This document shows positions 7,653 to 40,284 of a DNA stretch of 43,440 nucleotides, one piece after another. Every line of letters starts with the position of its first letter. Position 1 is the first letter of the stretch. The stretch lies in the NCBI GenBank assembly GCA_018398765.1, contig JAHBMJ010002780.1, positions 1 through 43,440 on the forward strand, in the 5' to 3' direction. The translations under genes were made by a program, and so were the position numbers. The DNA is from Chromera velia. Its lineage: Eukaryota; Sar; Chromeraceae. The notes under the pieces are model-generated. The model made no database searches. It was not told the origin of the DNA and saw nothing but the letters and a program-made list of their open reading frames with translations.

Positions 7653-10600
7653 ATGAGAGACCAAGAGCAATGGCGATGGGCGCCTGCACCCTTCTTAATG
7701 CCGCCTCCACCTTTTTTCGGTTTCATTCCACCACCCCTCTTCGCCGGTCCTTGTTCTGACACTGTTTATGCTGGGTCCCGCTCCTCTGGTGTCAGGAGTG
7801 AACTTCAGAAACTCGCCGAACAGGCATACAAAAAGGGAAAGATCATGCAGGACAAACCGTACGAAGGCGTCTACACCGAGCCAGAATACGAGGATATAGG
7901 AAATCCAGGGCTGGTGGTAGGTGCATATTCATGTATTCTTGAATTGAATTGCGTCCTGCAACACTTGTCAGTTGGTTGTTGGCACATACGTTCCCTCTTT
8001 GTTGCATCGATGGACTTAATTTGACGACTTCCCAACACGAATCGCGTATACACCCTGACACAGATACTAGGAAGATGGGCTATTGACCTGTTCTAAATGT
8101 TCTGCACGACTCTTTGCCGAAGTTGAAGCATGAGTTCATGGGCTACAGCGCCGATGCACACACAGAGTGCACGAACGGACTTTCAGGTGTTGCTTACCTC
8201 GGTTCTGCTTTCCAACTCTCAGTCTGGTCCCTCCTCTCTTCCGCCTCTGCGTCTTGCTCATCGTTCGCTTTATGTCTTCATGCATGTGCGCACCTCTGGT
8301 CTTCACGGGTTGACTGTCTTGCTGAAGCAGGCGACATTCATGTATAATTGAACGCTTCGATCATATGATCTGCAGGTTGTGACCAAACCAGTCGGGTGGC
8401 ACTTCAGCATCAAGTATGGACAGCCGAAGGAGGTCGGACAGCTTTATTACATGAATCTTTCTCACTGACGCAGTCATGATCCCCGTTCGTCATAGTGTCA
8501 CTTTTGGTTTCCTTCTTTTGGCTTTTCTGTAAGTCTCTCTCATGCATGTTCCCTCGACTGTTGCCAAAGACCGAGGCGTTCTGATCGTCCATCGTGTATA
8601 CATTGGATCACATTCGGACCCATCATGGCGTAGTGTTTTTCAATTCATTGCATTTCATTTGTGCTCAACGTCTCGATTCGACGCAATGCCATGTGGGTGT
8701 GTGGGAGTATCGACGTACATTTTTTTTGCGACTCTCAGACTCTCGCTCAGGCCCAGCGACGCATGCTGTTGCGCATCAAAGGGACTCTTACGTCGCTGCA
8801 TCAAATCGATGCAATTCTGAGGCAGGAAAACAAATCTATGCGCTGACGTTGCAGAAGAAAAAGAACGAGAAGAAGAAACAGAATTATGAGGACAGAGAGA
8901 GAGAGGAGGGCGAAATCTTCTCCGACGAGGAGGAAGAGGAGGACGAGGAGAGCCCTGTGGTGGCAGAGGGAGACTTCTGGCTTCCGAGAGACAAACATCT
9001 GATGCACAGGTGGGTTGTTCAAGCAGGTGCATGCAGACGTCGTCGGCCCAAAGGGACGCGAAGATAGGAATTCAACCGTTTGTCTGTCAACAATTTCTCT
9101 TTCCTCACGGCTTGCTTGCTTCCTGCCGTTCCTTCCTTCAATTCGTTCTGCGTGCTGTTGTAGACACATTGTCAAGCATTTCGAGGGAGACAGCAAGTAT
9201 GAGATGAGACACGCACGTGAGGAGTCCCACGGGGTCAACCATCGTAGTGACAAGGGAACCATAGGTCTGTCTGGCTGTCTCTCTGTTTATCTGAGTGCCT
9301 GGATGTCTGTCTCTTTCTCTCTCTTCTTCTCGTACGTGGCTGATGTCTCGTCCGTGACCTTTCCACTGACCGGCCGGCCCGGGGTCTGGCAGACTCATAC
9401 TTTTTTTTCGGGTCGCGCTTTTTTTTCGATAAATCCCTGCAGCAAAAACTCCAGTTGCAACCACCAAAAAGGCCTACACGTACATGAAGAAGAATCGCTA
9501 CCTAAAACAGTCGGCTTCATAGATGCACAAGAATGGATTGAAGGGCTCTTTTTTTCTTTTGCTGTCTTCATCTGCATCTCATCGTTTTCCGTCCTCGCAC
9601 TCACTCTCTCAGCCTCATTGGCGTGTCGTACGACGCTTGAAGGATCCTTTCGTTTTCCTTTTCTGCTTCCCCGCGATTCCTCCAAAAGACGGTCCCTTTC
9701 AGCCGCAGCTTGTCGTCTGGCGCCGATGCGCATCAGTCCAAGTGCTGGCAAAGGAAGGATGCATGAACTTCATGCGGCCAGCTCCACACGATTCGTGTGT
9801 GATGGCACCGATCTTGTGTCCCCTCCCTGTGTCTTGACAGGAAGAAAGGAAGAGAGGGCATGGGAAGGGGGGTGGGGCCATCCAAGCCATCAACTGAGAG
9901 GAGGGAAAGGCTACATACAGGGCACACTGGGTGCATCGATTGGAGCGTTTGAGAATCCATCGTTGTGATCATTACCTGCATGGCATGTTTTGAATCTTTC
10001 CCCTCGATCTTCATTTTAATCTTGCATGCCTCTCCCCTCCCTCTCTTAATTGCAGACCGAATCACCCCGAGAAGGAGTACGTCTGCGCCGTTCGGGGGAG
10101 GCCCATGACCTCCCATGGATATGTCCGAGCTGTCATGCAACGATGGGAACACGGGACAGGAGGGGTTGCTCTTGCTTTCTTGGTGGACGAAGACGATCCA
10201 ATTCCCTACAGGGGACCCCATGCAGGTGTGTCAGTCAGTCTGTTCACGAATCAAGAATGCAGTAGGAGATGCCAATAACTTGCAAAGTCCGGGCTCAAAT
10301 AAGCTTGAGGCAAGGCAAAAAAGAAAAAGAGAAGAACGGGAGGAGGTGAAATCCCGAATGCTGGCAACATTTCTTCAGACAGTCATGGACTCACCTCTCT
10401 GTCCTCTCTGCGTGCAGAAAACGCGAAAGAGCCCTACGAGACCCTGTCGCTGTGGCGGCAGCTTGCGACAGTGCGAGTGCCAAGGAAGACGACGGGAAGT
10501 ACCTTCGAGAGGTGTCAGCACGACTGGAGGAGACGAGGGGAGAGAATCCCATCAACTTTCGAGGACGACTGTTACTCAATCATGCGGGTGGCAATTCTCT

Positions 10601-12465
10601 CAGGGCACCCGTACCAGGTCAAGGCTCACATGGAGGTCAGCGTCAGAGGAGCAAAAGAACAGCAGACGAACGACAATCAAGCGCGTTTGAACTGCACGAC
10701 CAGACTTGTGCTGAGCCGCTCTTTGATCGCAGTTTTAATTCCCATTGCCTTGCACTTCCTTTTCTTCGCAGGCTTGCCGTCTTCTCGTCTTTCCCCTGTC
10801 TTTGTCTTTCTCTTTCTCATTGCTTTTCATCTCTTCCCTTTTTTCCCCTTTTTTTCGTCCAGTGGCCCATCTGTCTATTCAAAATCTTTCCTTCTTATCT
10901 CAAGCGCATGCAGGCCGTCGACCTCTACATGACCGGCTGCACAAGGTACTCCCCCTTGGAGCATCTGAACGAAGACGCAAAACGCGGAGTCACCCGTGCG
11001 CTCCTGGTCAGCAGTCCTAACTTTGCTCGATCATCCAGTTGGATGTACTTGTATCAAAAGCTGTCCATGCAGTCAACCAGCGTCACTCCAAGACGGATTT
11101 TCCTTTTTATCAATGATCGAGAGAGATGAAACTGAATCTTCTGTTGTCCTCTTAATTTTCTGATTTCGGAACGAAATTCGTGCGTGAACGCTGCATACAG
11201 GCGAATGTGCGGATGCGGTTTGCAAAGCCAGACACGACTGGGCCGGAGTGGGTCGCCACGAAGGAAAAGATCACTCTGCACGTCAGTCGTTGCATGGCCT
11301 CTCCGGACTAAGTCAATTTGGATCAAAGACGCTTCTCGAGTGATTATTAATCATCTTGGTTTCAATTTCTCCCAACCGGATGGTGCGGAGGCTCTCTTTT
11401 AGATCGAAGAGAGAGAACACCGAAGTCTGATGCAGATCGCATGATCTTTCTGCAAGTCGTGATGGCATGGATGAAATGGCTCACAGAGGTGCCGTGCTAG
11501 TAGTGATTTGTCCTCTAACCTTTGTGCTGGCATGCTGCACATGTGTTGTCTTGTGCTTGCATCTCTGCCTGCCTGCCTGCCTGCCTGCCTGCCTACAGTG
11601 CGACCCAGGAAAGGACTTTCGCCTTCTGTGGCAGCGCCTCTGCAAGGAAGGAGACTTGGAATTTATGGCCCCCGAGGTCTCGACCCTTCGCGATCGGATG
11701 CTCGATGGGAGTTTTCTTGGAGACAAAGAACAGATCGACCAGGCGATGTCTTTTCCCCTGAGGGCACAGTATCCGTCACATGCGTCAGTCAGTCCAGTGA
11801 TACATCCGATTTCAGCTGTCAGCTAGCTGCAGTTGCAAATGATTTACACGCAGAGCTCCGTGTCTTTCCTCCTCCCACTGCATGTATGTATGTTAAGTAG
11901 TCTGTTCTTGCATGAGGTGATTTGGGCTTTCAGTTTGCAGTCCGAAGACTGCCTTTCACTCTGTGCCTTTGTTCATTTTCACTGTTCTTCACCCTTACTC
12001 CATGGCTTTTGATTGACGATATTTTTCTCTTGCAGGAAAGACTTCGGCTGGAGTCCCTCTCCTCTCCCAGCGAGCGCCGCGAGTGTTTCAGCATCGGATT
12101 CCTCCTCAGCTAGTCCCTCGTCTTCTTCTTCAGCAAGTGGAAAGGTGAGCCGACTGGATGTTGCGTTTGACAGCAATATGAAGAGACTTTTCCCATGCAG
12201 CTCGCATATGTGCTGAACAAATCGCTTTCTTCCGCATCTCCTTCTTTGTCTCATTTCTGTCTTGGCGTTGCTTTATCTGAATTCGAAGTTTTCTTCTACA
12301 TGAAGAACATCATGCTTTGTGAGGTATTGTCCTCACGACCCGTTCCCATTCAAAAGTTCCCCTTTCTTGCAGGTACGATCGGCAGACGACTCGTCGATTC
12401 ATTCCCTCCCTGCCTCCAAGAAGTCCAAGCCAGGACAGAAGAAGAAAAAGGAAGCAGGGCGCTGA
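7653..12465 (+). CDS. Divergent RluA-family RNA pseudouridine synthase, 12 exons, 525 aa
   Basis: Exons: 7653-7916, 8376-8432, 8855-9009, 9164-9264, 9443-9509, 10056-10225, 10418-10635, 10914-11006, 11201-11281, 11599-11768, 12036-12144, 12373-12465. They total 1578 nt and stay in frame to a TGA. Family landmarks are in the right order: VVTKPVGWHF (residues 89-98; family VV.KPaG), HGVNHRSDKGT (181-191; family G.VHRLDkdTSG, with Asp188 as the catalytic Asp), AKTP (193-196), KEYVCAVRG (221-229) and GHPYQVKAHM (334-343; family GRTHQIRVHM). The family converts uridine to pseudouridine in rRNA, tRNA or mRNA. Oddities: several near-invariant residues differ, an acidic Lys/Glu insert (exon 3) splits the domain, and the tail is Ser/Ala- then Lys-rich. 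The N-terminus is Pro/Phe-rich with no clear targeting signal. An in-frame Met at 7482 is an alternative start; exon 2 and exon 8 borders are the least certain. Confidence 0.75.
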
Positions 12466-12605
12466 ACGTGACCCAGGTCGGTTTCAAAGATGTATGCGAA
12501 CGGGCAGAGAGAGGGAGAAGGGAAAATGGAGGAGGGAGTACGGGAGATGAGAGGACAGGAGAGACATCAAGGAGACAGGAGTAGAGCCGGAGGAAGACCC
12601 TTTAA

Positions 12606-12653
<48 letters not shown>

Positions 12654-14480: not shown

Positions 14481-14877
14481 TGAGTCCGACGTCTGTTTGT
14501 CACTGAACGTATAAACCAAGCATGAATTGAATCAAAGATGCAACGAAGTTTTTGAGATAGATTGGAGTGAATCCATATGATTGGAGTCCTCGATCGCTAG
14601 AGTTTAAAGCAATACAGAGCCCAACCTTCTATAGAGTGTTGTTTGAGTTTCTGTTGCTCACGTTCCTTCTCTATATACCCTTATAAAAGTGTACCCACAA
14701 AGTAGATCAAAAATTGATATGATGACATCGATATCAATTTTTGGTACACTTTTAAAAATTGACATGAATTTTTATATGTTTTGTTTTCTAGAATTATCAA
14801 GAGTTAGAAGCTCAAACTAACAAGGCTTAACACTCAACTGTTGTTTAATATAAGCTTCTAACTTTTTAAAGTTATTA

Positions 14878-15226
14878 CATCAGTGGGTTAACTCGTTTTT
14901 CATTATTCTTATAAAATCAAAAACCATTATTTTTTGATAGTGACTCTTGATTTCCGATAATCATTATTGACTTCAACATTAAAAATATGCAAAATAAGCT
15001 TTTCATGCCATAATCAAAGTTGTTTTTTGACTTGTTTGAAACCTTAGTCTATCATTTGTTTGAAAAGAAAATTGATAATTGTAAGAGCAATCTCTGTATA
15101 AAAATTATGAAATGAATAATTATTATTGTTATTAATGAAAAAGTAACTAATGATTATCAAAAGTTCATAATCATTATTGAAATTTATAATCATTGCTCGC
15201 TTTAACATTGAGTTAACCCACTGATG
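14878..15226. mobile_element. MITE-like element with 17-bp perfect TIRs and TA target duplication
   Basis: CATCAGTGGGTTAACTC at 14878-14894 is exactly inverted at 15210-15226. Each end is flanked outside by TA (14876-14877 and 15227-15228), as expected for Tc1/mariner-type insertion. The 349-bp interior is AT-rich, has no coding capacity, and contains further self-complementary words (ATAATCATTATT-like). It fits a non-autonomous foldback element. No transposase is present in the window. Confidence 0.65.
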
Positions 15227-15228
15227 TA

Positions 15229-16262: not shown

Positions 16263-18999
16263 TCACACTTTCTCCGGCCGCGGTTGCACTCTCAATCCAC
16301 TGATAAATCTCGGCACCCCATGGCCTAGTAAGACTGTGGTCAGTTTGGGAAGCGACCCCGGACGGAGGGTCTCGATAAAAGCGGAAAATCCGGCAGGGCT
16401 GATCTCATTCCCGCTCAGATCCAACGTCTCTAAAGTCGGACAGCCGTGAGATGACAGGAGCTGACCTAGTCTTTTCAGCCGCCTGTCTCCAATCCCGCAG
16501 GAAGCAAGCTTCAAAACCTTCACACGCACAAGCACTGAGTCATGCCGACACCTCGCCTCGCGGCTTGCTACCAGAGAATCGAGGGCCTCCTCACGCCCAC
16601 TCAAATCAAGGGACCACACCCACGGCGGCTGTCCTTCATCATTCTCAGCAATGATTTGAATCAAAGCCTCCGCCCTCAGATGCGGTGTATGACCCCCAAG
16701 GTCGACAACAAAAGACCTAGTAGTGCACAAACGGGGAGGGAATCTTTTGCTTCCGTTGGCCAAAATGGCCAAATCATCGGTACCAAGAACGAAAAGGGGA
16801 GGCTCATCTCCGAGCCGCTCAAGGGAGGGAAGCTTACCCGACCCAAGAGCAGCCAGTACTGACCCACCCCCCATTTCTGCTCCTGTGGTGGTTCTGGTGA
16901 GATTCAGATCTATGAGTCTTGGAAGTCCCTCTGCACTGTTCACAACCGCATCCATCAGAGCGTCAATTCCTGATGCTCCCAAACTATTATGGCTCAGATC
17001 AAGAACACGGAGAGAGGATAAATTTCCGGTCCTCACCGCCTCTACCAAAAGACTCAAATCGGTATGTGTCAACCCGACTCTGCTCAACGAGATTTCAGAC
17101 AGAAGCGTTGCCTTTCGATGACAGAGCCCTGTCAAGAAGGCTGCTCTCCCTTCAGCTGTGTCTCGAAAGATCAGAGGCGCGGTACGGTCATACGACCTCA
17201 CAGCAAACTTTTGGAGACAACACAACCGTCCCGACTGAAGAGCATCTCCAACAAGGTTCAGTGCCCCATTCACTTCCTCGCCGGACTCAGAAATAACTTC
17301 CATGGAAAGGTCTAAAGCCCCAAAGCTGCCCCCCACAAGTTGCGGGAGGAATGCGCTGAACAGCTTGGGACGGAGCTGGAGGGCGAGGGTGCGAACTGTA
17401 GGGTATATCCCTGCGGCCAGAGCGCTTAAATCCTCTTCCGCAACTCTCGTTCCAAGACAAAGCTGCACGTTTTCCAGATCGGGGCACTGTTCAGCCCGGA
17501 GTGCCTGGAGGAACTCAGAGACACCCACTGAATCCACTGTGCCGGCCTTTGTCAATAAATTCAATTTCTTCAAACGAGGTACTGCGTCTACACGCAGTGC
17601 CCTGCTAAGAAACCCCAGCCCATGTCCCCCAAAGTCATTCCCTTCCAAGTCTAACACCTCAAGATTTGGCAGGTCCCTTATTTGGAGGGCATAGGAAAGT
17701 TCCTTCATCCGTAAATTGTCCAACCCGCAGTTCCTCAACTGCAACACGCGGACACACGGAAGGGACCCCACGCAAAGAATCGGGAGCAGCACCCGCATTT
17801 GTGCAAACCCTATTTGGACCCCCGACAGATTCAGAGATTCCACCCGTAACCCCGTCTCCTGCACGGCCCCGCAGAGAACCTCCAACAGGTCCTTCGTCAG
17901 TCCCGTGTTTTCGAGGTCCAGGGACAGGAGGCGGCCAGCGTGACCGTCTCTGATTGCTTGTGTGAGTGCGGAAACCCCCTCCATCCCGAGAACGTTCCCT
18001 GACGTGACAAGGACAGTTCAATTTAGAAGTGGGAGAGGAGACGAATCGTCAGATGGAAAATCCTGTGAGATTTTTCAAACAGGAAGGAACTGCACATGAT
18101 CTTAGATAAAGACAGACAGACAGACAGACAGACAGACTACATCGTCTTTTCTTTTCCTTTTTCTTTTCAGACAGACAGACTTTCCTTCTCCCCGACACGC
18201 AAGAAGGCGCAGAATAAGAGAAACAGACATGCCCACGCACATACATACAATATCACACACACACACACACACACACACACGTGTCAGTCTCTCATTGTCA
18301 TTCCTGGTCACACGCATGCGACCAAAACAAAAAAAGGAGATTCGATGACGGACCCTTCAGGCTGAGACTCTCCAAATGGGGGAGTAGAAGAGGAAAAATT
18401 GTCTGGGCGTCTTTTGGGTCCAGTGAATTCTCTGCACAGACAGTGAGTGAGAGAGTGAGAGAATGAGCCAGTAGAGAAGAAACACAGAGCCAGAGTCAAG
18501 AAAACAAACACGCAAAACAGTGCAAAGCGCAACTGAAGGGCGGCCCCCTTCCGTTTGTGACCCCTTCGAGAAAAGTCAACGACATTCGGCGCACTCTCAC
18601 TCCTGCACGGAACCGCGTTGAATCCTCCCTCTCAAGCAGTCTCAAAGCTCTTCATTTTTTGCTCACCTGCGAAATTGAACCTCAGGCGACCGGCCACCTT
18701 CCGCAGAAAGCGGAGGAAGAGGGGAAGTGCGGCACCTCTCACAGCTACGCGATCTGCACACAGCATGCAGCAGTTTGTTCGTCAGAGACTTCTTTCGAGT
18801 TCTCATTGACCTCAAGGTCAAAAAAGTTCAAGACGCCCTGCCTCCCCGTCAGGGTCAGAAAAGCTTACCGGAGAGACAAAGCGTAGGCGGCGTGGGGGAA
18901 TCGGTCCACGAGACAGACAGAGAGCCATTCAGCCAGCCAGTCAGACAGAACATCACAGGAGCGCACAAGCAAAGGAGAGAGTGCGAAAGGGCCAGGAGC

Positions 19000-19069
<70 letters not shown>

Positions 19070-26137: not shown

Positions 26138-26175
<38 letters not shown>

Positions 26176-29100
26176 GTGTGTGTGTGTGTGTGTGTGTGTC
26201 GGGGGGTGAGTGTCCGGCCCCCTGACTGACCTCACAAGATGATACGCAACCTCATCCAGCTGCTCCAGGTATTCTTCCTGAAGGTCGAAACAAGAATCAG
26301 AGGGGAAAAGGGCGAATGAAAAGCGAAAAGTAAAGAAGGAGGGAAGGAAAGGCCCGAAGAAAACAGGAAAGAAAGAAGGAAGGGTGCAGATCACAGTACA
26401 GGACTGTTAAGATGAAGAGGAAAGTAACTACTAGCGGAAAGGGTCTGTCTGGTAGCAACGAGGAAACTTCTTCGAGTCTTCATCATGTCTTCTGTCTCTC
26501 TACAAAGCTCTGCCCATTGGGGCTGCGAGTAGTAACCTCCGCATGTGTCTGAGATACGAGCCACTTGCTTTCCTTCAGATTTTCACGAAAGAAACCCGTC
26601 TGCTGATGGATCCAGCCTTAATTGAGGCCTGACGGACCTCCGACAGATTGTTCCCAGGCCCCCCAAAGTAGTCCCAGAAGATCAGCATCTGGACCTGCAC
26701 ATGCATACGACAGCTAGAGAACGAGATCACATGCAGAAAGAAACAGAGAACTCGCTTGGGTCGGTCAAGCATCTTGTGACCCCAGCCAGTTTGTTGTTTT
26801 GGCACCAGGAAAAGAAGCCGAGGAGAGCAAAGGGAAAGCGAGAGAGAGAGAGACCCGAGAGGCCCACTCATTCAAGCCCCCACACCCCACAGAGAGAGAG
26901 ACCCACGTACATTTTGAATACCAAAAGCGCGTCTGTCGATGTCGATGCACGCCATATACGGCACTCCCCACTGCTTCATGAAGATGTTCGCAAGGTCATC
27001 TCCGTTGAACACCTGAGTCCACTCATTGGTGAACTTGTCGTACTTCTTCCGCCGCCTGCACCCACAAGACAAGGAAGCAGGGAAAAAGAATGTGCCACAA
27101 CATGGCAGACAGGAAGCCACACGCACAGATGTCTAGACTCCCGGTTGAAAAGCCTCTTGTTTCTCCACTCTGCACAACCGAGTGACCTACCGAAATCGAC
27201 CAACCAGAGCTGAAGCCGACTTGAAAGACGTCGCTTCGTCGCGGACAGGCACGGAAGCAAGCAGAGGAACCGAAAAGAGGAGTGACAGACTTGGAAAGAA
27301 AAAGAGAAGAAGACGTACAAACAGACAGACCTTCTGAACATAGTTGACCCCCTCATTTGGTACGTCCGTCCGTATGTCTTCATTTTTTCGAGATCTACTG
27401 GCGGCTTCACGGGAGCTTTTCTTTTCGGGAGCACTGGAATGAACGCGGTCTTCCCGTTGTTGCCTTGAATTATCTCTAACTCTCCTGCAGACGTGCAGAG
27501 CAGTAAAATCATCTCTCAGATGAGCGGACCGACGAACATACAGGGAGAACAAGGAAGAGGGGACGCATCTAGTCAGAATTCCGGACGCCCTTCTTTGAAC
27601 ACCCCAAAAAAAGGGAAGCAAAGACTTTCCGTTATCCTTGCTCGCTTCAAAAGTTAACGACAGAAGAAAGCACAGAGGGAAAGAAAGACGGAAAAATTAG
27701 TTGGGGGAGAGCAGGGCCGCTGACGAAATTCCTTCATGACCGTTCCGGAAAAATTCACCCACCGACCCACTGACTGACCTGCCTGAACCTTCGACATTTT
27801 GTCCTGACGCTCCCATAACCTTTGAAGCTGTTCGCGCTTTTCCCTGCTCTTTACCTTCCGAAGTTTTTTATTTCGTTCTGCCTCCACACCCCTCACAGAG
27901 TTGACAAACATTTTCTGGGCCTGCTCTCGAGAGGGCATCACAAAAGGGACTCTCTCCGCATCGCTTTCGTTCTCCTCACTCTCTGACAACCCCCCTGTCT
28001 CCCCCTGTCCCTCAACATACGCCTCTGCCTGAGCCTGTGGGTGGGTGAGGCTGCTGGACATTGACCACATTTTCTCCAGCCTCGCCCGTGCATCCTCCGC
28101 TTTCTCCATCGGGTATGCTTCTGGAATGGCTCTGCAGTCAGGCAGGCAGGCAGCCAGGCGAAGAGGGGGAATGAAGAGAAAGAAAACAGAGGCGATCATA
28201 CAAACACATGTAGACACGAGACATCAGACACAGACTTCGAACCGCTCTCAGTCCTTTACTCAGCTTCTCTATGAAGCATCCATATAGAGGTGAATGGAAC
28301 CATTTTTTATTCATTGACTTTTTTCAACCACTCGAGATTTCGATATCGAGCAGCAAAAGATGAATCAGAATGAAGAAATGACGGAGACGGGCGGGATGGG
28401 CCCATGTTCTCTCTTTCCACCTTTCTCTCCCTCACTCCCGGAATTTCGCCTTTTCCCGTCCTTTTTCTTGTGTTACACCCATCCTTTTCTGATCGAGCAG
28501 ACTATGTCTTCTTACTCTTCCCGTTCTCTCCGTCCCTCAATGCCAGCTAACTGCTTGATCGACTTGCTGAGAGAGACTGACAGGATATCCGAGAAGACCT
28601 CCCTCTCCCGTTCCCGCACCTTCACCGCGTCTTCCTCAGACTCTGCATCGATCCCCAAAATCCCAAAGATGTTCTTCTCGGACTTCTGCAGACCTGCCAG
28701 AAAACTTTCGAAGTCAAGCCGCCGTGCCCCCCCTGCGAATCGAAAAGCAGCAAAGAAGCAGTTACCACAACCTGGTCAGAAAAGCAAAATCGAAAAAAAA
28801 AATCACAAGACCTGTACGAGCTGTCCTCGTTTAGAAAAATGCATGCATACAAAATCAGAAGGGGTCACCAATCTTCCATTCAATGAGCAAATCGCCACTT
28901 CAAAACTTAGCAATAAGAATGCAACAACACGTCTCATGTATACAGAGAGAGAGAGAGAGGGGGGGGAGGGGGGGTGTCATCCAGAGCCAGAGGACCGAGG
29001 GATGAGGTGGATGGAAGAAATGAAAGACACAAACACAGAAGACGTGCAGGAAGGAAGACAGGGACAGAGCGGAACGCAACGGGAATTCCGATCCTGTTCC

Positions 29101-31127
29101 AAAAAGGAAAGGAGGAAAATGATTGACTCACCAAACCACTTCTCAATACCCCTTTCAAACGATTTCCTGCACAATTTTGAAGGAAACGCCACAGAGTGAG
29201 TCAAAAACGAGAAATGAAATATACGAAGAGGCCGGCTAGTCCTTTCTTCCCTCCTCCCTTTCTCCATCTTCCTTTTTCATTTGTTCGTTGCTCTTCATTT
29301 TTTGCTCCTCTGTTTTTCTGCTGTTTGAGCACTCCACTTACTCTCTCACCCAGTCGCTCGCTCATATTCTCGATCAATCACTCCACCTTTTCACTTCCCT
29401 ATGCATCCCTCACTTCCTCTCCCGCCCGCCCGCCCGCCCTTTTACCAACTGACTCACTCGTTGATCAGAGGAACCTCACTGTCCATGAAACACGAGAAAA
29501 CTGCAGGCAGACAACAGACAGACAGACAGACATACGGATGCCATGCAGGAGGCAAGATGACAAGAGACTGCTTGGTGCAGGAAATTCTTCCATCCGGGTC
29601 ACTCCGAAGAGCACACAGAGTCTCCGAAGAGCACACAGAGTGATTGATGTAGTGTCAATGCTGTCCCCTGTTTCACGTTTTTTTGAGCTCTCGCTGTGAA
29701 CCCTCTTCTCCTTCTATCTCTGTCTAGAGCCCTTCGCATGCACACGATGTGATAACCAGCTAGCTGTGTCAACCCGCAGAAGACACTTACTGACTATTCG
29801 ATTCAATGACTGCCTGGCTGATTGACTGACTGACTGACTGACTCGCTTCTGCCACATCGCCATGCACTTCCTTGCATGCGTTTACTTTCCGTGAAAAGAA
29901 TTCTGTATGAAAGTAAAATTGACTGACTCGCTTCTGCCACATCGTCATGCACTTCCTCGTTTAGTTTTCCATTCAGACGCTCCAGGGACTCCAGCACGTC
30001 CTGCTCCTCTGTGACGCCCTTCTCTCTTTTGGGGTTCAGAAAGGCCAGAAAGCCCTGGGAGGAGGATGACTTCTCGATGTCATTCCTCAAAATGCGCCTG
30101 TGCACCAACTGTTGGACCTCCACGTTCTGCACGTACTCTGACTTTCCCCCTATGATGAATCTGGTCAGCATGAGAAACTCTCGAAAGAACTCGTTCGGCA
30201 AAACGAGAGTGTTGTTCTTGTACACCGGCCTGCAGAGAAGAGCAGAAAGACGGCCGGGCATCCTTAAGAGTGCACATCGGTCACAGAAATAAGCCAAAAG
30301 CGCAAATTCGTGTGCAAGTGCGACGAGGAGACAAGTTAGAAAAACTAGAGGACCACAGGCAGGCGGACAGGTGCATTCAATGGAGCACCCGAGCTTCGGC
30401 TTCCTTGATCCCCCCGTTTCTGAATCTGTCTGTCTGTCTTGAGTAGGAAGTCATCAAGGGTCACCCACTCACCAGGTGAATTTCTGCTTGTTCATGTAGT
30501 CCTGCACGAAGTAAAGATACAAAGTCACCGGCACAAAGGCGTCCAACAGAAATAAAGCCCGTCCACCCAATTCAACTGCGTCAGTGATCGCCTCCCTCCC
30601 CACTCACTGACTCTGTGACGCACAGCCCTGACGCACAGCCCTATGCAAACTTCTTAGTGACAGAACCGCTCCCACACTACGCTTCCACTTCACAAATTGC
30701 CTTCCTCCAGACGCCCAGCCAATATCTGAGTCTGCTAAATGAGTCATGCAGGAGTGGAGCCATCAGACGCTCGGAGAAGTTCTAGCAGAAGCCAGGAGCG
30801 GAGAACAGCAAGAGCAGACCAGGGGAAATGTCAGTCCCACAGAAGAGCCATCCCACTCACCTTTAGCTCCAGTTCAGAGATTGACGACTTTGAGGCAAAC
30901 CATCTCTTCTTCAACCTGTCAAAATCGACCACCTTGCACAAGACTCGCCCCTGGTCTTCTGCAAGTCGACTGAACCCGACCATGCAGTCGTACTTCGGGA
31001 GATAAAAGCCACAGTGCCTTGCCAACCCGCCATTCTTGGCTCTCGCGCTTCGTTGTCGTGTTTTTGACTGTGCCAACAAAACGAGGAGCACACTCAGCAA
31101 AACTGAGATGCGAAGTCGAGAGAGCAT
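24470..31127 (-). CDS. DUF3067-like plastid protein with bipartite presequence, 12 exons, 749 aa
   Basis: Minus-strand exons: 31127-30861, 30501-30473, 30229-29924, 29166-29132, 28732-28552, 28131-27779, 27484-27331, 27055-26911, 26694-26638, 26277-26236, 25588-25487, 25048-24470. The sum is 2250 nt, in frame throughout. Residues 1-20 form a hydrophobic signal peptide (core LLSVLLVLLA) followed by a basic stretch (KTRQRSARAK), the layout used to enter complex plastids. Residues about 460-565 resemble DUF3067 of cyanobacteria and chloroplasts as I remember it: DDLANIFMKQWGVPYM, MLIFWDYFGGP, NNLSEEEYLEQLDEVAYHL and GYAVSFPI, matching KWG.sYd.ql, qvMWkYL, pLsEeEYleqLd.Va.yL and GKAVsIPL. The rest is charged and coiled-coil-like, especially the Glu/Lys-rich C-terminus. 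Two related motifs (EDARARLEKM and EDARARMERL) recur near residues 285 and 710. Function is unknown. The acceptor at 25588 is weak; the last border of exon 3 is ambiguous. Confidence 0.72.
25337..25470. repeat. (CTTT)n polypyrimidine tract and short GTCT run
   Basis: Lies in the intron between exons 11 and 12 of the minus-strand DUF3067-like gene. It ends in a GTCT/CTGT run 17 bp from the exon 11 donor. Lys/Arg-rich frames on the minus strand here are artefacts of the repeat. Confidence 0.9.
26139..26200. repeat. (CT)n(GT)n microsatellite
   Basis: A CT run passes into a GT run. It lies in the intron between exons 10 and 11 of the minus-strand DUF3067-like gene. Confidence 0.9.
29822..29963 (-). 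repeat. 85-bp-offset duplication of an exon end and its donor
   Basis: The 3' end of exon 3 (minus strand, GAAGTGCATGACGATGTGGC onward, through AGAAGCGAGTCAGTCAA) recurs 85 bp downstream inside the intron with one substitution. In the second copy the GTCA unit is expanded to about five repeats. Tandem 5' splice sites are therefore present; using the second would shift the frame. Confidence 0.8.
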
Positions 31128-31795
31128 CTCGACCACACCGGCGGAGACGCGAAAGATCAGTCTACCCCTTGCGGTCACGTAGCTCGGCAACAGAGGAAAC
31201 ACGGGCCAAGCATGCGACAGTTGACGTCTGTGAAAGTCTGGGAAAGCAACTTTTGCAAGATTTCTCCTTCAAAAACGCCTGCCAACTAGGTCCACAAAGA
31301 AGAAATGTCACTCATGTACGCAGACAGTCTGCCAACTTGGCTGCGTCAAGCTGCTCATGCAGTGGTCGAATTTTGCTCTTTGTCCGGTCGCGCGGCGGCG
31401 CGCGCGGATCCAATGTGCCCGTACGTGCATGATATCATATATATCGATCTCGACTCGCGCCCACGCTGGGCGCCGCCACATTCTCGTCTCATTTTGTGTT
31501 GAGGCAATTATTTTCTCAGTCTGCCTGGCGGACAGTGACTGTCACTGACTGACACAGAGTGTCTCTTTGAAACAGAGCTCCAGAGTCCAGACAAGGGAAG
31601 CAATGTACAACTTGGATCTCCAAGGAAACTTGTTGCGCAGACAAATGCCCTGACGTTCAGTCAAGCTGGAACTTCGTTTGTTCGGAAGATTCAACAGTTT
31701 TCTTTTGTCCGTCTCCTTGCCCCCAAGCAATTGCAAGTTGTTTGAGCAGGTGTGCTCTTGAAAACCCCGCAAAGCAGCAATTCATACACTTCTGC
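31128..31795. promoter_or_regulatory. Divergent intergenic region with GC block and TATATAT
   Basis: This 668-bp region separates the starts of two head-to-head genes, so it probably holds both promoters. It contains a CG-rich block (31390-31407), TATATAT at 31438-31444 and a second GC-rich block with GGGCGCC (31467-31475), about 350 bp upstream of the BRCT gene start. That arrangement matches the region at 7259-7345. No coding frame is supported here. Confidence 0.45.
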
Positions 31796-34700
31796 ATGAT
31801 GCCTCGTCAGAGTCAGAAGAAGAATGGAACAGGCACAGTCCAGAGATCGTTGAAAGTTTGGTTCGAGAGACCAGAGGTTGTGAGGACTCTTGTTTCAAGG
31901 CACCAGGATGTGGGCATCGCACCTCGCAACAGTGAGGACCCCCGCAAAGCTGCCGAGTACTTTGTGTTCGAAACCCCTTTTTTGAAATCCTGGTACAGTG
32001 CCATCACGCAGGGGCGTAAAGTCTGTGGCCACGAGTTCTTCAGAAATTTTTTGGAAACTCGTGCAGCACGAGACCATCCCAAACCCCCTACCAACTCCTT
32101 TCCCTTTTTCGACCAAATTCTGCCAACCGGCAGCGTCGTGTTCTGCCCAGTGCAGGCAATTGACACTGACGTTACACGCAGAGATCTTGAGAATGATGCC
32201 CGTGCACTCGGTGCAGTGGTCGTTGCATCTGCTGACGAGCTTGCAGGGGCAATGATGGAGAGGGAGGCAGAGCAGCCGTGCTTTGTTGTTGCCGACACAC
32301 TCAGCGCCGACACAGTGGAAGCGCTGGCAATCCTGGTGACCCGTTCCGGGTCTCCTTGTCGTATCGTCCGAAGTAGTTGGATTATCGCTCAGAAAGACCC
32401 GCAGACTCGCACCTCTGAGCCGAACGTCCTACCGCCCTTTGCCGGTCTGAAGGTCAGTTGCCACCCTTTGTCTGGTGAAGTGAAACGAACGCAGGAGGCC
32501 ACTCTGAGAACTCATGGGGCGATTCTCGTCTCCAAGCTAAATGAGGCCGCGTTTGTGGTGTTTTCAGACAAGGAGTCCAAGCTTTTAGACACAGCAAGAA
32601 GAGGGAGAAAGGTGTGTGTGGGGGTTCAGTGGGTTTCCAAATCGATCGAAAACGGCTGGGCCCTTCCTGCTGGGCACAGAGACTCCGAGATCCCTTCACA
32701 GGCATGGGCTGTCTCTGGCCCTCTGGCCCTTCAGGCCGGAACTCTGGGGGGGGGGGGCACCCTCCCTCTCCCTGGCCCTCAGAGCAACGCCAACAGAAAC
32801 ACAAACGCCCCCCTCGCTCTCCCAGGAATTCAGGAGACTGAGCTTGCAGACGCCAGCCAGTCTCTAGCGTTGGTGCCTGTTTCTGAAACACTCGAGCAAC
32901 AGAGAGGACGAGAGCAGACAGCAGGTTTCCTAGCGTTGAGGGGAGAGGGGGCAGTGGGTGAGCCTGGGCACTGGTTCCGCGGCTGCGTCGTGTGTGTGCA
33001 TTTCTTGGGGAGGGAGGCCAAGGTTAAGTGCCGTGAACAGGTTGTCATGGGGGGAGGTTGGACGGCCGAGGATCCCCTGGATCCCCAAATCACACACATT
33101 CTCATCCCCCCCGTGCCCCCCCGCCGGCAGTTACAGCAGCAGGAAAAACAGGAAGTTGCTCTTTGCGTGACATCTCGCAGAGGGAGATTGCCCTTCTTTG
33201 TCAAATCCTCCTGGCTTGCCGAAAGCAGTGCTGCAAAGTGTCTTATCGCTCCTGACAGTTTCCTCATTGATGAAATCTCCCATGTTGACCCCCAAACCCA
33301 ACCGGGTGCAGTCCCTCTCTGTCATGACGAACTCTCACAAGCCAATCAAGGGGCAGCAGGTCCCGGGGGACCACCCCAGGCCCCTCAATTGCAAGGAAAG
33401 GCCACCGCTGGTCTGGCACGAACATGGACCGCAGGCAGTGCGTACTCAGGAGCAACACAGCCGATGCAGGCAGCGTTTCCAGTTCAGCGACAGCCGACAG
33501 ACGGTGCGAACCAGCAGCCCCCTCAGCAGCAGCAACAGCCGCAGCAAAGAGATCAAGACCGAGAGCGAGAGAAGCAAGCAGGTGAAGGGCCTCCCGTTGG
33601 CCTCCAGAAGGAGAAGGAGAAGGGAAAAGAGTCGGGATGGTATGTGAGGAAGAACAAGAATGCCCCCCCTGCCTCGTCTTCTTCCTCTGCTCCATCCTCT
33701 GGGGTGAATCCTTCGGCGGCGGTGTTGGGAGGGAAACGTGTGGGTCTGGCTGGGTTTACCCGAAGAGATGCGGAGTACATCTGGAAGGAGGACATCAAAG
33801 CGGTCAGTCAGTCAGGCAGTCAGTCGATCTCTTCGTGCCTGGGTGGGTGGGATCATGGAAACAAAGGTGCTTGAATATACAAAAGTGGTTTGTCTCGTGA
33901 CAATACAGAAGCAGAAGACATGTGCCGGAATGAGGAGCGCACAAGTTAAGCACACAACATACGTGCAGCTTACGGTGCAGATAGACAGGAAGGTAAGCAC
34001 ATTTCGGATAGACAGGGATGGAGAGAGCCTATTGAAGAACAGATTCAGGAAGGGAGAGGTCACTCAGGGGACGATCCAAGAAAAAGAGTGCGCAGGAGAC
34101 ACCGGCCATCTACGGCTCATTGCAGCGAATTCCCTCCACCTCTTTCAAATTTGATTTCGTGATTTCTATCATCTCCCTCTACATCCCCTTGCCTTCTGTC
34201 TCCTTTCTCACACCCTTCGTCAACCCCAAATTCTTGCACAACCTCTTCGACCGTTTCCCCTGTCTCTTGGTACATGCATGTTCCTCCAGCTTGGGGGGGC
34301 GGAAATTATCTCTGGTCCCCAGCTCGCACAAGGGCACCTTGACTATGTGATTGTCAAGTAAGTTTCTGTCTCTGTGTGTCTTTGACCGTCGGTCTGCATG
34401 CCTGGCTTTCGCAAGTGATCATCTGAAAGGGGGACCGACAGACAGACAGTGAGACAGACAGACAGACAGACAGAAAGACAGACAGACAGGAGTGGGGAAA
34501 TTCTGTCTCTTCCTCCTCATACGAGTCATCAGTATGTCGGCTTTTGAGCTTCGTAGAGGTCCCACCCAGATGTCTCGAATTTTCCAGTATATATTCTCAG
34601 CTTTCTTCTCCGTTCCTTCTCTTACTGTTTGTCTTCTGTGCTCATTTTTTCTTCTTCTTCCCTCCCTTGCGTGTTGCGTTCGTATGGATGCACGAGCCAC

Positions 34701-36550
34701 GCAATATCTGCGCATTCTCCCATGCATCTCTATTTTGTTTTTGATTCCTGGGCTTCACCCATGTTGTCCCTTCCTGTTCCCTCATCATGTCGGGCGCTTC
34801 TATTTTGATGCCATCTCTCTTTCCACAACGGCCCCTTCTTTTGTCGGTCTGGTAATTTCTTTTTTTTTTTCCTTCTTGCTTTCTTCCTTCCTTCTTTCTC
34901 TTTCTCTCCTTCCTTCCTTCCTTCCTTCCTTCTCTTTCTCTCCTTCCTTCCTTCCTTCCTTCCTTCCTTCCTTCCCTTCCTTCCTTCCTTCCTTCCTTCC
35001 TTCTCTCTCTCTCCTTCCTTCCTTCCTTCCTTCCTTCCTGCTTTCTCTGCTATTTCCCCCTTGCCTTCTTGCGCACCTTCTGCTCTTCCTGTGCAGCTAC
35101 AAGGAGGGCATGCAGGAACTTCGCAGAATCTGCAATCTTGGGCAAGGCCCTCTCCCTTCGGAGTGGGAGAGCAAGCTGGTGTCCTACCTGTGGCTGAAGT
35201 TTTGCAAAGACGACTGCAGACTCTACAGCCCCCTGGAGTGCGACTTCTTCCGTCCGTCCAAGGCGTTTGACAGTCGCTCAGAGGCGTTCTCGGACATGGC
35301 CGTGCGACTGACTGCGTTCCTTCAGATGTCGCCGGAGCAGGAGAAGGCGCGATCGGAAGGGCAGAAATTCGTTCGAAAGCAGCCTGACTTGGCCTGTGTG
35401 AAGATGGTGTGCAAAGCGCTGAGGCTCACAGTTCTCGAAACAGCGTGGGATGGTCGAAGACCAAACGACAAACGTGCCGATCTGGTCATTTGTGGGATGT
35501 GGAGAAACGCGAATAAAGGAAAACTCCGTTTGGCACGTAGAGAAGGGATCTCGGTGGTCACCATCGACTGGCTTGTGGAGTCATACAAACAGGTAAGGTA
35601 GAGGGCGGAAGGGGGGAACTGCAACATAGGGCAGAGACAGATGCGAGCAATAGCAGGCAACCTTTCCTAAGTCCCTTGCGTTCTGTCCTTCCAGCTTCTA
35701 TTCTTTCTTCAGTCTTTGCGTCTTTCCTTCCTTCGTTCCGTCCATGTCTTCCTCCTTTCCGCAAGCGCCTGCTGGATCGGCCACGGTGCCACCCGGTGCC
35801 TCATGACCTCATCTGCCTTCAGTCATTCGGTGTATCTCAATTTCTCGTTGTCTTTTCGTTGTCTGTGCATTCCATGTATGCACACGCGCTCGTTTGTTTG
35901 AAGATTGCGTGGTGTGTGTGGGGGGGNNNNNNNNNNNNNNGGGGTATGTTTGTGTGGGTGTGCGTGTGTGTCTGTGTGTGTGTCCGAGCGCGCGCGTTCT
36001 GTCTGTTGATCTTCATCTGTTTGTATGTCTTAGCGGGTGGGTGGGTGTCCTAGCGCGCGCATGTTCTTGGGGCTCTCTGTTGATCTTCATCTCTCTGTGT
36101 GTCTGTGTGTGTACATGCAGGGAAGGCCTATTCACAAAGGAGAGGCACAGTTCCAGCTCTTTATCGTGGAAGTTTCAGAGACAGGACAGCCGTCTCGACC
36201 CCAAGAGACATCCCGAGAGCTGGTCAGTCACCTACTCACGTGCTACGTCAGTTAGTCAGTTGGTGGGGGGCTCTCTCACCTTGCTTCATTCAGGTTGTCT
36301 CTTTGCCTGTCAGCTTCTATTTCCTTGCGACGCAAATCTGGAAACGCTTTATGTGGCTTTTCGACGTTGACTCTGCCTAAAGAAACGAGTGCGCTGCTTT
36401 TGAGGGTGTCGCACGTGAAATCCAAATCCTCTTCTGTTTGTGTTATCACCTCTCGGCCCTTCGCCTGTCTCAATTCTTTTCGCGTCAGTCCTGTGTTCTC
36501 CCCTTCTGGCTTCGTTCTCTTCATTTCTTTCTTTCTTTCTTTCTTTCTCT

Positions 36551-36596
<46 letters not shown>

Positions 36597-36636
36597 CTCT
36601 CTCTCTCCGTCTCTCTCCGTCTCTCTCTCTCTCTCC

Positions 36637-36673
<37 letters not shown>

Positions 36674-37715
36674 CCCGTCTCTCTCTGCCTGAAAAAGGAC
36701 CTCGAGGAAGTGACGCGCTTCTCTGAATGATTCCGCGCTTTTGTCTTCTTCTGCCACTCTCTTGTTTCTGACCCATGTGCAGCTGTTCATGAAAGGTGAG
36801 ACCCTGGTGGCCTCCCCTCTCGTGGAAACAGAGAGGCTCTCACAGGCTCTGAAGGTGGGAGCTGTTGTCAATCCCCCGATTGGTCTCCGCCAAGGGGGTC
36901 CTGGGGGACCGTCTCCTTCTGCTCTGCAGGCAGCCGCAGCTCAGCCGGGCGTTGCAGGCGGAGGCGTCGTCTGCCCAGCCTCCCACTGTCCTGCAGACGT
37001 TCTTGCGTTGATGCTGTTGGAGGAGGTCCTGAAAGATCCCCGAAAGTGGGACGCCTTCTCGGCATCCCCTTTGCCCCGAACCGGCTCCGGTCCCCTTCCG
37101 CCGTCCTCCCCCCCTTCCCTGAATTCTCCCCTCTCAGCAATGGAGGATGGGAAGATGGATGAAGACTTGGGGGGGGCAGTGAAGTTTTTGATCAGCAATT
37201 TCAGAGGGAACGGAGGAGGTAAAAAGAGGGAAGCAGGGCAGAACTCTCCGACCAACGCCGTCGCTTTTAGTCCCTCCTTCTCGCTGCCTGCTGAGCTTGT
37301 GATGGTCTTCAAGGACGACCTCGAAGCGCAGGTGGGGAGGGAGCGGGTCGAGGAGAGAGTGAGATTTGCCATCTTTGATCAAATCAGCAAGAATTGGGAG
37401 GGGAAAAAATCGGGTAGGGAAGGGGAACGTGACATGAAGGAGGTGGAGCAATGGCTGAAGAGCGTTTTCTCCTCTGCGCTCGACTCTCTCCGTGTCACCC
37501 TCTCTGACTGGTTGCTCGAATGTCTGGATCAGAAGAGAGTCACCAAACACGAGCAGTGCCGCCCCTGGGCTTGGCGCAGTCGTCAGCGCAGTGGGCCGGT
37601 GGGTGCGGAGAGAGAGTCGCAGAGGGAGCGAAGGGGGGGAGTGCAGGTGGAGTGGGCAACTGCGGAGGCGGCACTGATCGACCGAGGGCGGCGAAGAGAA
37701 GAAGAGCAGCAGTGA
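31796..37715 (+). CDS. Multi-BRCT-domain protein, five or six exons, about 1201 aa
   Basis: Exons: 31796-33802, 34290-34357, 35097-35592, 36121-36222, 36783-37715 (TGA). The total is 3606 nt in frame. Around five BRCT-type modules are visible. Examples: GLKVSCHPLSGEVKR with VCVGVQWVSKSIENG (residues about 216-288); WFRGCVVCVHFLG with LPFFVKSSWLAES (about 392-480); KRVGLAGFTRRDAEYI across exons 1-2 into LGGAEIISGPQL and LDYVIVN; and RADLVICG with GISVVTIDWLVESYKQ (exon 3). An N-terminal module ends in CRIVRSSWIIAQ. BRCT proteins bind phosphoproteins in DNA damage and replication control; this layout recalls TopBP1/Dpb11, but orthology is not shown. The Gln-rich linker near residue 570 is low complexity. 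A strong GTGAGT donor at 37712 and a phase-compatible exon at 38107-38206 give an alternative 1233-aa end. The ATG at 31799 is an alternative start. Confidence 0.75.
34437..34490. repeat. (CAGA)n microsatellite in BRCT-gene intron 2
   Basis: CAGA units with small interruptions, 80 bp after the exon 2 donor. Confidence 0.85.
34861..35045. repeat. (CTTC)n polypyrimidine tract in BRCT-gene intron 2
   Basis: About 185 bp of CTTC units with CTCT interruptions, ending 50 bp upstream of the exon 3 acceptor. It may act as a long pyrimidine tract for splicing. The Ser/Leu/Phe-rich open frame crossing it is not coding upstream of 35097. Confidence 0.9.
35927..35940. other. Run of 14 N (assembly gap)
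   Basis: Undetermined bases in a G/GT-rich microsatellite in BRCT-gene intron 3. No exon is interrupted. Confidence 0.95.
36526..36680. repeat. (CT)n/(CTTT)n microsatellite in BRCT-gene intron 4
   Basis: Long CT and CTTT runs between exons 4 and 5. The LSLSLS-type frames here are repeat artefacts. Confidence 0.9.
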
Positions 37716-38106
37716 GTCTTATATAACTTTTCCATGGTCACTGTTCGTCGTTCTGAAGTTTTCTGTCACGCCATTTTGAGGAGATTGGCCTCTTTGCTTT
37801 TTGAGGTGGTTTTGTTCCTTTCGGTTCTCCACTCTTCTTGCCTTTCTGACTCGAGGAGGCTCGTTCCTCCTCTGATGATTCATGAGGCCTCGTGGTAGTT
37901 GATCGCGTGGTGTCTGCCTGCAGACAGGGCACTGCCTGCTTGGCCTGGTGCTTCGTGTCAGACAGAGTTCCGTGAGGACACTGCTCGATGAATGATTGTT
38001 TGCATATCTCATTTACTGTCAGAAGCTCATTTCTTTTGCGATACTGCATGCCATTTTGTAATGTCTCTGTGGGACCTTGTCTCTCTTTGTGTGTGTCGGG
38101 CTGCAG

Positions 38107-38206
38107 GAGGGAACGCGCAGCCCGCTACGCGGAGCTTGTAAGCACTTCAAACTGGGTCCAAGGGTGGCCTAACTCCGAAATAAATCGAATTCATTCAAAA
38201 AACTAG
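38107..38206 (+). CDS. Possible alternative last exon of the BRCT gene
   Basis: This exon follows a GGCTGCAG acceptor and joins in phase 2 to the GTGAGT donor at 37712, adding RERAARYAEL and 22 more residues to a TAG at 38204. The junction is good on both sides, but reading through exon 5 also gives a clean stop (37713-37715). A GTAAGC donor inside it could lead further. Either end may be used. Confidence 0.4.
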
Positions 38207-39300
38207 AATCCGACGGATTTTTTTGAAATCCAGAGATATTTGGAGAAGTAGATTTGAGACGTCTTTGATAAAAAGGCTTTGTTAATAAATTGCTCTCATT
38301 TTTGACAATTTTTTACACCAATCGAATCTTAGCTTTCAAATTTTGTTTGAGCTTGTGTTTATCAGATAGGTTGAAATTTAGGTTCTGAAGTGTCTCTTAG
38401 CTAATATAAAAGACCATGAATTCGTGGTTTTAATGTTTAAACTAGTGCTTAAAGTATTAAAATTTTATTGAAAAGTGGGGGTGTCACAGAGAGAAAAAAA
38501 AAGTACATATCTCGATGTATATCAGATTTTTTTTTTCTTTTTTTTTTCTTTCTCTAAAATAACGGCAGCGGCCGCATAGTCTCGGATAGACGAAAGGAGG
38601 ATCAGCCGTTCTACTCATTCAAAAAAGCTGCTTTTCAAATTTAGAAGATGAGCCCTCATTTTAAACTATGAAAGTTACTCTTGACACCGCTGCTTATACT
38701 AAACTAAGTAACTAACTAAAGACATAGCTAAAGACCGTGCCTCAGCTTTGACTTTAATGTTGGAAAATCACTTTATATTTATTCCTGATTTTTGCCAGAT
38801 TTTCCGTTTACCCAACTTTTATCGTATATTAGTTTGATTTTTAAAAAATATAACTAAATGTAACTCTTTTAACCATAAGTTGTGGATAGTTGTGGGCCGC
38901 AGTGGGCGTGACTCCGCGTGAGTAAAGTATAGTAGAGTAAAGGAGCCGAAATTCTTCACTGCATGGTTTATGGTTGGGGTGCGCCTCTAAGCAAGGGACA
39001 CCAAACATGGCCAGCCCCCCTTATACTAGGTATGCATACTACGTTGTTGGTCTTTTTGTTGGCGTTATCTACAGTGAGGTCCTGAACAAAAAACCCAAAC
39101 AAGAATGCAGACTTGCGCACTTGGCATGCATGCATGCCACCGAGCCGACCCACGCTGCATACGTACTCTTGCATGCAGACTTAATTACTTCCGCACGCAA
39201 GGCGCGCGAACCTACTGCAGCTTGTTTATATTGATTCTGACTCATGTAGCGACCTACGACGTATACATATACATGGATTGAATGCATTGATTCAGTGTAT
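38207..39300. other. AT-rich island and short GC-rich block, no gene
   Basis: 38207-38960 is AT-rich with poly-A and poly-T runs and no coding frame. 38960-39300 has normal composition and includes TATACATATACA near 39264, 30-130 bp before the calpain-like exon; this may be promoter sequence. Nothing else is recognised. Confidence 0.5.
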
Positions 39301-39308
39301 AGCCGTGA

Positions 39309-39538
39309 GATTCTTGCACAAGAAGTTCATCAGTACATCTGCCTAGACTGCCTCTTGAAGGTCCTAGAAGGTCTGAGGACATCGAGCCGAATGACGCGGT
39401 GATCTTTGAGGCGAACAAACCACCAAGCAACGTGATCCCAGGAAAACTGCCCGACGACGGGTTTCTGGGGGCCCTGGCTGTGCTCTCCATGTGTCCACAC
39501 TTTTTGTGGAACCTGTTTGTGCGCGTGGACAAGTGGAA
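39309..39538 (+). CDS. Calpain-like domain fragment lacking the catalytic cysteine
   Basis: The frame opens after a TGA at 39306 and runs through GPRRSEDIEPNDAVIFEANK, PGKLPDDGFLGALAVLSM and CPHFLWNLFV. This follows the first part of a calpain (C2 peptidase) core, where a W.RP.ei segment precedes G.LGDCWFLaAlavLa..P..i.nLF. In that alignment the active-site Cys-Trp is replaced by Asp-Gly, so peptidase activity is not expected. The exon has a possible phase-2 donor (AA then GTCAGT) at 39538, exactly where the GTCA array begins. No start codon is fixed: an upstream exon is needed, or this is a decayed fragment. Downstream calpain segments (His and Asn sites) were not found, so either the gene continues through poorly recognised exons or it is a pseudogene. 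Confidence 0.45.
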
Positions 39539-39590
39539 GTCAGTCAGTCAGTCAGTCCGTCAGTCAGTCAGTCCGTCAGTCAGTCAGTCC

Positions 39591-39621
<31 letters not shown>

Positions 39622-40207
39622 AGTCAGTCCGCCAGTCAGTCAGTCAGTCAGTCCGTCAGTCAGTCAGTCAGTCAGTCAGTCAGTCCGTCCGGTCAATCAG
39701 TCAGTTAGTCCGTCAGTCAGTCCGTCAGTCAGTCCAGTCAGTCTGTCAGTCAGTCAGTCATGCAGTCAGTCAGTCAGTCAGTCAGTCAGTCGGTCAGTCA
39801 CGTCAGTCAGTCAGTCAGTCAGTCAGTCAGTCAGTCAGTCACTCAGTCAGTCAGTCAGTCAGTCAGTCAGTCAAACAGTCCGTCCGTGCGTCCGTGCGTC
39901 CGTCCGTCCGTCCTTCACTCCGTCCGTCCGTCCGTCCGTCAGTCAGTCAGTGAGTCAGTCAGTCAGTCAGTCAGTCACTCCAGTCAGTCAGTTAGTCAGT
40001 CAGTCAGTCAGTCAGCCAGTCAGTCAGTCAGCCAGTCAGTCAATCAGTCAGTCAGTCAATCAGTCAGTCAGTCAGTCAGTCCCTCAGTCAATCAGTCAGT
40101 CAGTCAGTCAGTCAGTCAGTCCAGTCAGTCAGTCAGTCAGTCAATCGGTCGGTCAGTCAGTCAGTCAGTCAGCCCGTCCGTCCGTCCGTCCGTCCGCCCG
40201 TCAGTCC

Positions 40208-40240
<33 letters not shown>

Positions 40241-40284
40241 CCAGCCAGTCAGTCAGTCAGTCAGTCAGTCAGTCAGTCAGTCAG
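39539..40284. repeat. (GTCA)n tetranucleotide array, about 746 bp
   Basis: Roughly 180 GTCA units with interspersed GTCC (GTCCGTCC blocks near 39880-39940 and 40172-40205), GTTA and GCCA variants. It starts directly after the calpain-like exon, at a GT. All three forward frames are open for long stretches (up to 269 codons of Ser-Val-Ser-Gln) only because GTCA contains no stop; these are not proteins. It is not a CRISPR array, since there are no unique spacers. Confidence 0.95.

Follow-up and report, generated by a model that had tools for sequence, protein, structure and literature searches.

The window analyzed here comprises 43,440 nucleotides of the unicellular photosynthetic eukaryote Chromera velia (contig JAHBMJ010002780.1, from an assembly that totals 177.8 Mb over 4,040 contigs), and its predicted genes contain introns whose 5′ splice site (donor) reads GTC, with C at intron position +3. 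We confirm that such GTC donors, found in about half of the introns examined, are real and general in this genome. Introns in the window were predicted with a hidden Markov gene finder in two versions: a blind model, which scores donors at positions −2, −1, +5, and +6 and ignores +3 and +4, and a full model, which uses a position weight matrix over all donor positions. In a BRCT-domain gene (31796–37715), both models place a plus-strand intron (33803–34289) that opens with GTCAGTCAGTCAGG (33803–33816); the BRCT Pfam match sits in the exon ending at 33803, distant from the junction, and thus provides no test of it. On the minus strand, both models agree on the donors GTCAGTCAAT (29918–29927), GTCCGTCAGG (26628–26637, starting GTCCGT), and GTCAGTCAGG (26221–26230). 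A Pfam DUF3067 match (residues 306–369 of the spliced protein, E = 4e-6) spans the minus-strand junctions at 26910 (GTACGT) and 26637 (GTCCGT) and is an outside check on this predicted gene. Two further minus-strand donors, GTCAGTCAGTGGGT (27765–27778, the intron descending from 27778) and GTCTGTCTGTTTG (27318–27330), come from the full model only: in the blind model the exon terminates at 27909 and the following exon is missing, so that support for both sites depends in part on a model with knowledge of +3. The ankyrin-repeat gene (3098–12465), which has an ankyrin Pfam match, carries GTCAGTCAG (5395–5403, plus strand) in both models, which also agree on the plus-strand donors GTCTGC (6480–6485), GTCAGC (10636–10641 and 11007–11012), GTCTGT (32021–32026), and GTCAGTC (36223–36229). 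The initial annotation had quoted five donors in the window. Four of their sequences are as written, and the one given at 29924 on the minus strand has its donor GT at 29927; the full model places 33803 (plus) and 27778, 27330, and 29927 (all minus) exactly, whereas the fifth, GTCTGTCTGG (9265–9274, plus strand), is unsupported and falls within the predicted intron 9010–10055.

The window genes have little homology (20 open frames tested), and we thus used conserved genes elsewhere in the genome for intron mapping. Aligned loci were 8 of the 11 contigs with CCT-family matches, two VCP/Cdc48 genes, V-ATPase B, and 30 light-harvesting complex (LHC) loci, LHC genes being numerous in the assembly (58 matches). 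The spliced protein-to-DNA aligner required GT (with GC penalized) and AG and had no other site preference, so the GT and AG ends of the aligned introns are partly imposed. Protein references were mostly human sequences, considered adequate since the majority could be aligned over the entire gene. From 143 aligned introns (62 CCT, 18 VCP/V-ATPase, and 63 LHC) we kept a strict homology set of 64, requiring flanks of ≤10 residues that score ≥20 on both sides, with neither gaps nor any N among the initial 60 bases, a filter that is blind to +3. LHC introns proved poor for boundary mapping, and 10 of their 63 rows were kept. Among the 26 excluded non-LHC rows, 15 start with GTC and one with GCC, so the exclusion did not inflate C; a looser CCT set has C at +3 in 27 of 50 introns. 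When the mapped donor was forbidden, the alignment score dropped by at least 5 in 52 of 54 CCT, VCP, and V-ATPase introns and by 4 in the other two, one of which is the illustrative GTC donor of CCT gamma (exon end cgagtg/GTCAGTCAGTCAGTCAGTCAGTAGG).

The blind gene finder, first trained on 26 non-CCT introns, was tested on five CCT contigs kept out of training, where it recovered 33 of the 36 donors at the exact base; scoring every position raised this to 35. The test excluded three CCT contigs that were gapped or poorly aligned. Retrained, like the full model, on all 64 homology introns, none of which comes from the window, and run on 262,602 bases from 62 sources, it yielded 22 new introns in the window and 70 usable ones elsewhere (71 minus one for N or short length), which were de-duplicated by a 28-base key only, so that diverged LHC paralogues may persist. 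The resulting union samples a genome of 178 Mb with 156 introns, 92 of them from the gene model.

Homology introns have the features of U2-type GT-AG introns, with a GT start, an AG end, and a conserved exonic G at −1 (57/64) and G at +5 (63/64); A is found at +4 in 34. At +3 we find C in 31 of the 64, G in 20, A in 8, and T in 5, and the commonest donors are GTCAGT (15), GTGGGT (7), and GTCAGC (4). By gene set, C at +3 amounts to 18/38 in CCT, 11/16 in VCP and V-ATPase, and 2/10 in LHC genes. The blind model gives 37/70 outside the window and 10/22 inside it, for a total of 78/156 in the union, and the full model gives 12/23 in the window, a count that is partly circular because this model has learnt +3. 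These figures bear out the initial hand-built models, in which 13 of 33 donors had C at +3. We tried chance or bias in hand modeling as the source of GTC donors and ruled it out, as the homology and +3-blind models agree. Acceptors read TGCAG in 45/64 homology introns and in 51/71 and 16/22 further predicted ones, both predicted sets under an acceptor score that favors TGCAG; the 3′ splice site of this genome thus appears rather rigid.

Could composition account for C at +3? By such a drift, +3 would be unselected save for the avoidance of U, C would be common as introns are GTC-rich and GTA-poor, and U6 would have no role. Purines at +3 do equal the background (63/156, or 40%, versus 46%; p = 0.17), and A is infrequent after GT within introns (8–10%). 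C follows 30–35% of all window GTs and 31% of GTs inside introns, however, and at donors it is 1.6-fold above the intron background (p = 8e-7 in the union, p = 0.004 in the homology set). It also exceeds its frequency at 169 intronic GGTNNG sites, a small background (p = 2e-9, union). As T is depleted, purines are not preferred, and C is in excess, the rule at +3 reads as “not U, often C.” C at donor position +3 moreover accompanies A at +4 (p = 0.027, homology set only), and GTCAGT behaves as a unit toward the exon end, as detailed below. We therefore hold composition to be a doubtful, though serious, explanation. The initial suggestion that the splicing machinery tolerates or prefers GTC is in line with the acceptance of C at roughly half of the donors in our sample, above background. 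Our literature search, with subscription papers mostly outside its coverage, found among the papers listed no report of C at +3 or of GTCAGT donors in Chromera or in protists.

Donors of well-studied eukaryotes follow the consensus AG//GURAG, with a purine at +3 (PMC11732430), and two classes of 5′ splice site have been described, AG//GUNNN (U5 type) and NN//GURAG (U6 type) (PMC9803359; review PMC11732430). In the homology set, exonic AG precedes 1 of the 15 GTCAGT donors and 31 of the 49 others (p = 0.0002), which argues against pure composition. The exon ends before these 15 donors are TG (7), CG (3), AA (2), AG (1), GA (1), and CT (1). A at +4 and exonic AG are likewise anti-correlated (odds ratio 0.08, p = 1.3e-5). 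In the union, AG precedes 9 of 43 GTCAGT donors and 64 of 113 others, a contrast that the additive scoring of −2, −1, +5, and +6 can exaggerate. Chromera donors thus show, for GTCAGT and for A at +4, the anti-correlation between intronic class and exonic AG that is expected of U6-type sites; they do not show the purine expected at +3 (purine 28/64, C 31/64, T 5/64).

In some introns the GTC donor occurs in a repeated form, GTCAGTCAGTCA, and the initial annotation had proposed that GTCA and GTCT arrays start at donors. This holds for GTCA. The density of GTCAGTCA reaches 7.7/kb within 30 bases of the intron start, against 0.1–0.5/kb deeper in the intron and 0.22/kb antisense. In the union this amounts to 36 matches in 4,680 positions versus 10 in 58,739 deeper ones (25 of 156 introns versus 7), and in the homology set to 11 matches in 1,920 positions, in 8 of 64 introns, versus 1 in 20,870. 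Genome-wide, AG/GTCAGTCAGTCA is 3.1 times as frequent per base as GTCAGTCAGTCA after AC or AT (650 versus 414 for two bases), and the same patterns reversed, used as a control, give a ratio of 1.3 (173 versus 265). Of 1,149 genomic GTCAGTCAGTCAGG sites we examined the eight that head the list: at four (L003, L006, L007, and L008) the blind model puts a donor where the array begins or no more than 16 bases upstream of that point, and at the remaining four it predicts no gene. GTCT behaves differently: its arrays occur at 2.99/kb over the opening 30 intron bases, 2.78 over the following 30, 1.23 at 60–120, and 1.83 beyond (antisense 0.35), and GTCTGTCT is sense-biased along entire introns without confinement to donors. 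The proposed enrichment within 30 bp of donors is thus found for GTCAGTCA and not for GTCT. It does not extend to long arrays either, as exact 4-mer runs of at least 8 matches are found at 2 of 64 donors (3.1%) versus 96 of 1460 other intronic sense GTs (6.6%).

The GTCA ladders are in phase with the donor. Across the 156 introns, GT occurs at +5 in 117, +9 in 44, +13 in 31, +17 in 31, and +21 in 24; in-phase and off-phase rates are 0.208 and 0.051 (+9 to +24), 0.109 and 0.074 (+25 to +40), and 0.085 and 0.057 (+41 to +64), and the in-phase rate at +9 to +24 is higher in 75 introns and lower in 41 (p = 0.002). The letters at later +3 and +4 equivalents match the unit of their own donor above those of other introns in units 1–3 (z = 6.8, 5.2, and 2.4), with z about 0 at units 5–6 and 2.3 at unit 7. 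Matching in the first three units is more than a ladder of GTs alone would give and argues for tandem duplication. Tandem GTNN runs inside homology introns are several-fold sense-biased.

A purely mutational origin would put the repeats first: slippage and a GTCA/GTCT-rich mutation spectrum in transcribed strands would have made the donors, which the spliceosome merely tolerates. The own-unit matching of the ladders is in line with this, as is the excess of GT start points on the sense strand of the 64 homology introns (1460 versus 613 antisense, 2.4 times). Yet GTCT arrays run throughout introns, whereas GTCAGTCA hardly occurs away from donors; the GTCA at donors is therefore more than a spillover from the overall burden of arrays, and we regard the mutation-first origin as rather unlikely. 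Introner elements, a kind of mobile intron, are known from other algae and from Amoebophrya (PMC7789003), and one such family could have carried GTCA ends to new sites. The fading of the own-unit match within about five 4-mer units is what local duplication predicts, as judged by similarity measured in the donor-proximal region only, and makes introners a very improbable source.

We located the splicing RNAs of the genome, which, as in U2-type systems, have a canonical U1 5′ end, U5 loop 1, and U6 ACAGA box. The only over-threshold U1 (L009) starts with AAACUUACCUG; U5 loop 1, read from the Rfam alignment in one of two copies, is CGCCUUUUAC, and ACAGAG is present in all six U6 copies read of seven matches. 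Beside the single full U1 lie partial copies, L010 cut in its 3′ part and L011 lacking the 5′ end, which are likely pseudogenes. The initial annotation had looked to the U1 5′ end for a matching change. A U1 whose 5′ end is complementary to GUCAGU (ACUGACCUG) might have diverged or escaped assembly, given that the assembly may be incomplete and that small nuclear RNA copies can be missed (41 of 2442 first-look candidates were scored). L009 and the truncated L010 both carry ACUUACCUG, however, and when U1 positions 5–6 were left free and two mismatches tolerated, a pattern search returned five matches (the two known copies and three with two mismatches), the same number as its reversed pattern. 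We thus find no compensating change at positions 5–6 of the kind expected from co-evolution of U1 and the 5′ splice site, and consider an altered U1 very improbable. A METTL16-like gene is represented by two adjacent PF05971 matches, with an exon encoding CNPPF, which we take to be the METTL16 motif, followed by GGGTCAGACAGTCAGTCAGTCAGTC. SNRNP27 is present with its QYMNRKGGF segment, which presumably holds the residue corresponding to human M141. Judged by sequence, both genes would be fitting for a code with A at +4.

Several other features were noted along the way. An (AGTC)n array of about 186 units (39538–40284, plus strand; Tandem Repeats Finder) lies between predicted genes and is not a model donor; it is upstream of a single-exon gene (40991–41665, plus strand) with a staphylococcal-nuclease-like domain (SNase, E = 3e-18) and the N terminus MGCKCS, which we take to be a possible lipid-modification signal. 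A leucine-rich-repeat open frame (16269–18017, minus strand) was overlooked by the gene model. Among the loci used for intron mapping, a second, more divergent VCP/Cdc48 gene (L079, C3521:48900-53900) accompanies the standard one (L078); extra VCP/Cdc48 copies in red-lineage algae often serve plastid import.

Taken together, the initial interpretation is partly supported, and we propose a shifted 5′ splice-site code, to which we give an even chance of being correct. Two compensating donor types would exist: one AG/GTGGG-like, with a good exon end, and one TG/GTCAGT or CG/GTCAGT, with a poorer exon end and a strong intronic part. The purine at +3 is usually explained by U1, whose base facing +3 is presumably pseudouridine 6. 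C at this position would lose one U1 pair, but Watson-Crick pairing could be gained with G44 (human numbering) in the ACAGA box of U6. Such sites may therefore be settled mainly by U6 after the hand-over from U1. U6 G44 contacts +3 in the Bact and C complexes (PMC9803359), and this contact, with the compensation by exonic AG, leads us to read GTCAGT as a local form of the U6-type donor. As GTCAGT already amounts to 1.5 GTCA units, replication slippage could add further units on the intron side, giving GTCAGTCAGTCA; coding would hold the exon side in place, and later copies would be weaker donors, so ladders would be tolerated. A stronger version, in which GUCAGU is the main 5′ splice-site word, chosen for pairing with U6 rather than U1, with U6 setting the intron start and the 4-base period seeding microsatellites, falls short of even odds in our judgment and is put forward tentatively.

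Several observations weigh against the shifted code. LHC genes, with C at 2 of 10 donors, are out of line with the other sets, and C ranks second among the bases that follow GT in introns (31%), which makes its frequency at +3 partly a matter of composition. C at +3 by itself is only weakly linked to the absence of exonic AG (p = 0.045 homology, 0.11 union). GTCTGT, the full Watson-Crick match to U6 ACAGA, is scarce (1/64), just 2 of 64 donors bear a long exact 4-mer run, and the putative N6-methyladenosine mark on U6 has the METTL16-like gene as its sole indication. Should the shifted code hold, the loss of the purine preference under an unchanged U1, with the U6-fitting C as the commonest base, would amount to a natural separation of U1 and U6 reading, and Chromera donors would offer a direct test of the two-class model. 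Donor-seeded GTCA ladders would connect a signal for splicing with the origin of microsatellites. In practice, gene prediction that presumes a purine at +3 may put many of the exon ends of this genome in the wrong place.

Comparison with known systems places the Chromera donors as follows. Tandem donors of the GYNNGY type share the GTNNGT spacing of 4 (PMC2423196, PMC8055015), whereas Chromera also has ladders with at least three copies of one unit type and half of the donors are GTC. Amoebophrya, which may belong to the same wider group (alveolates), also has repeats near the ends of its non-canonical introns and introners (PMC7789003); the Chromera introns examined, in contrast, fit GT-AG, which the aligner required or favored. 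Saccharomyces cerevisiae GUAUGU donors have letters that improve pairing with U6 ACAGA, at +4 in yeast and, we propose, at +3 in Chromera, where donors are degenerate, +4 is mostly A or G, and +3 is C (PMC9803359). Another parallel is with the U5-type and U6-type classes (PMC9803359, PMC11732430): exonic AG is strongly anti-correlated with the intronic part, +5G is near-invariant, +4A is prominent, and a METTL16-like gene and SNRNP27 are present. Unlike U6-type NN//GURAG, the intronic class of Chromera consists mainly of GUCAGU preceded by an exon end other than AG, with C instead of a purine at +3.

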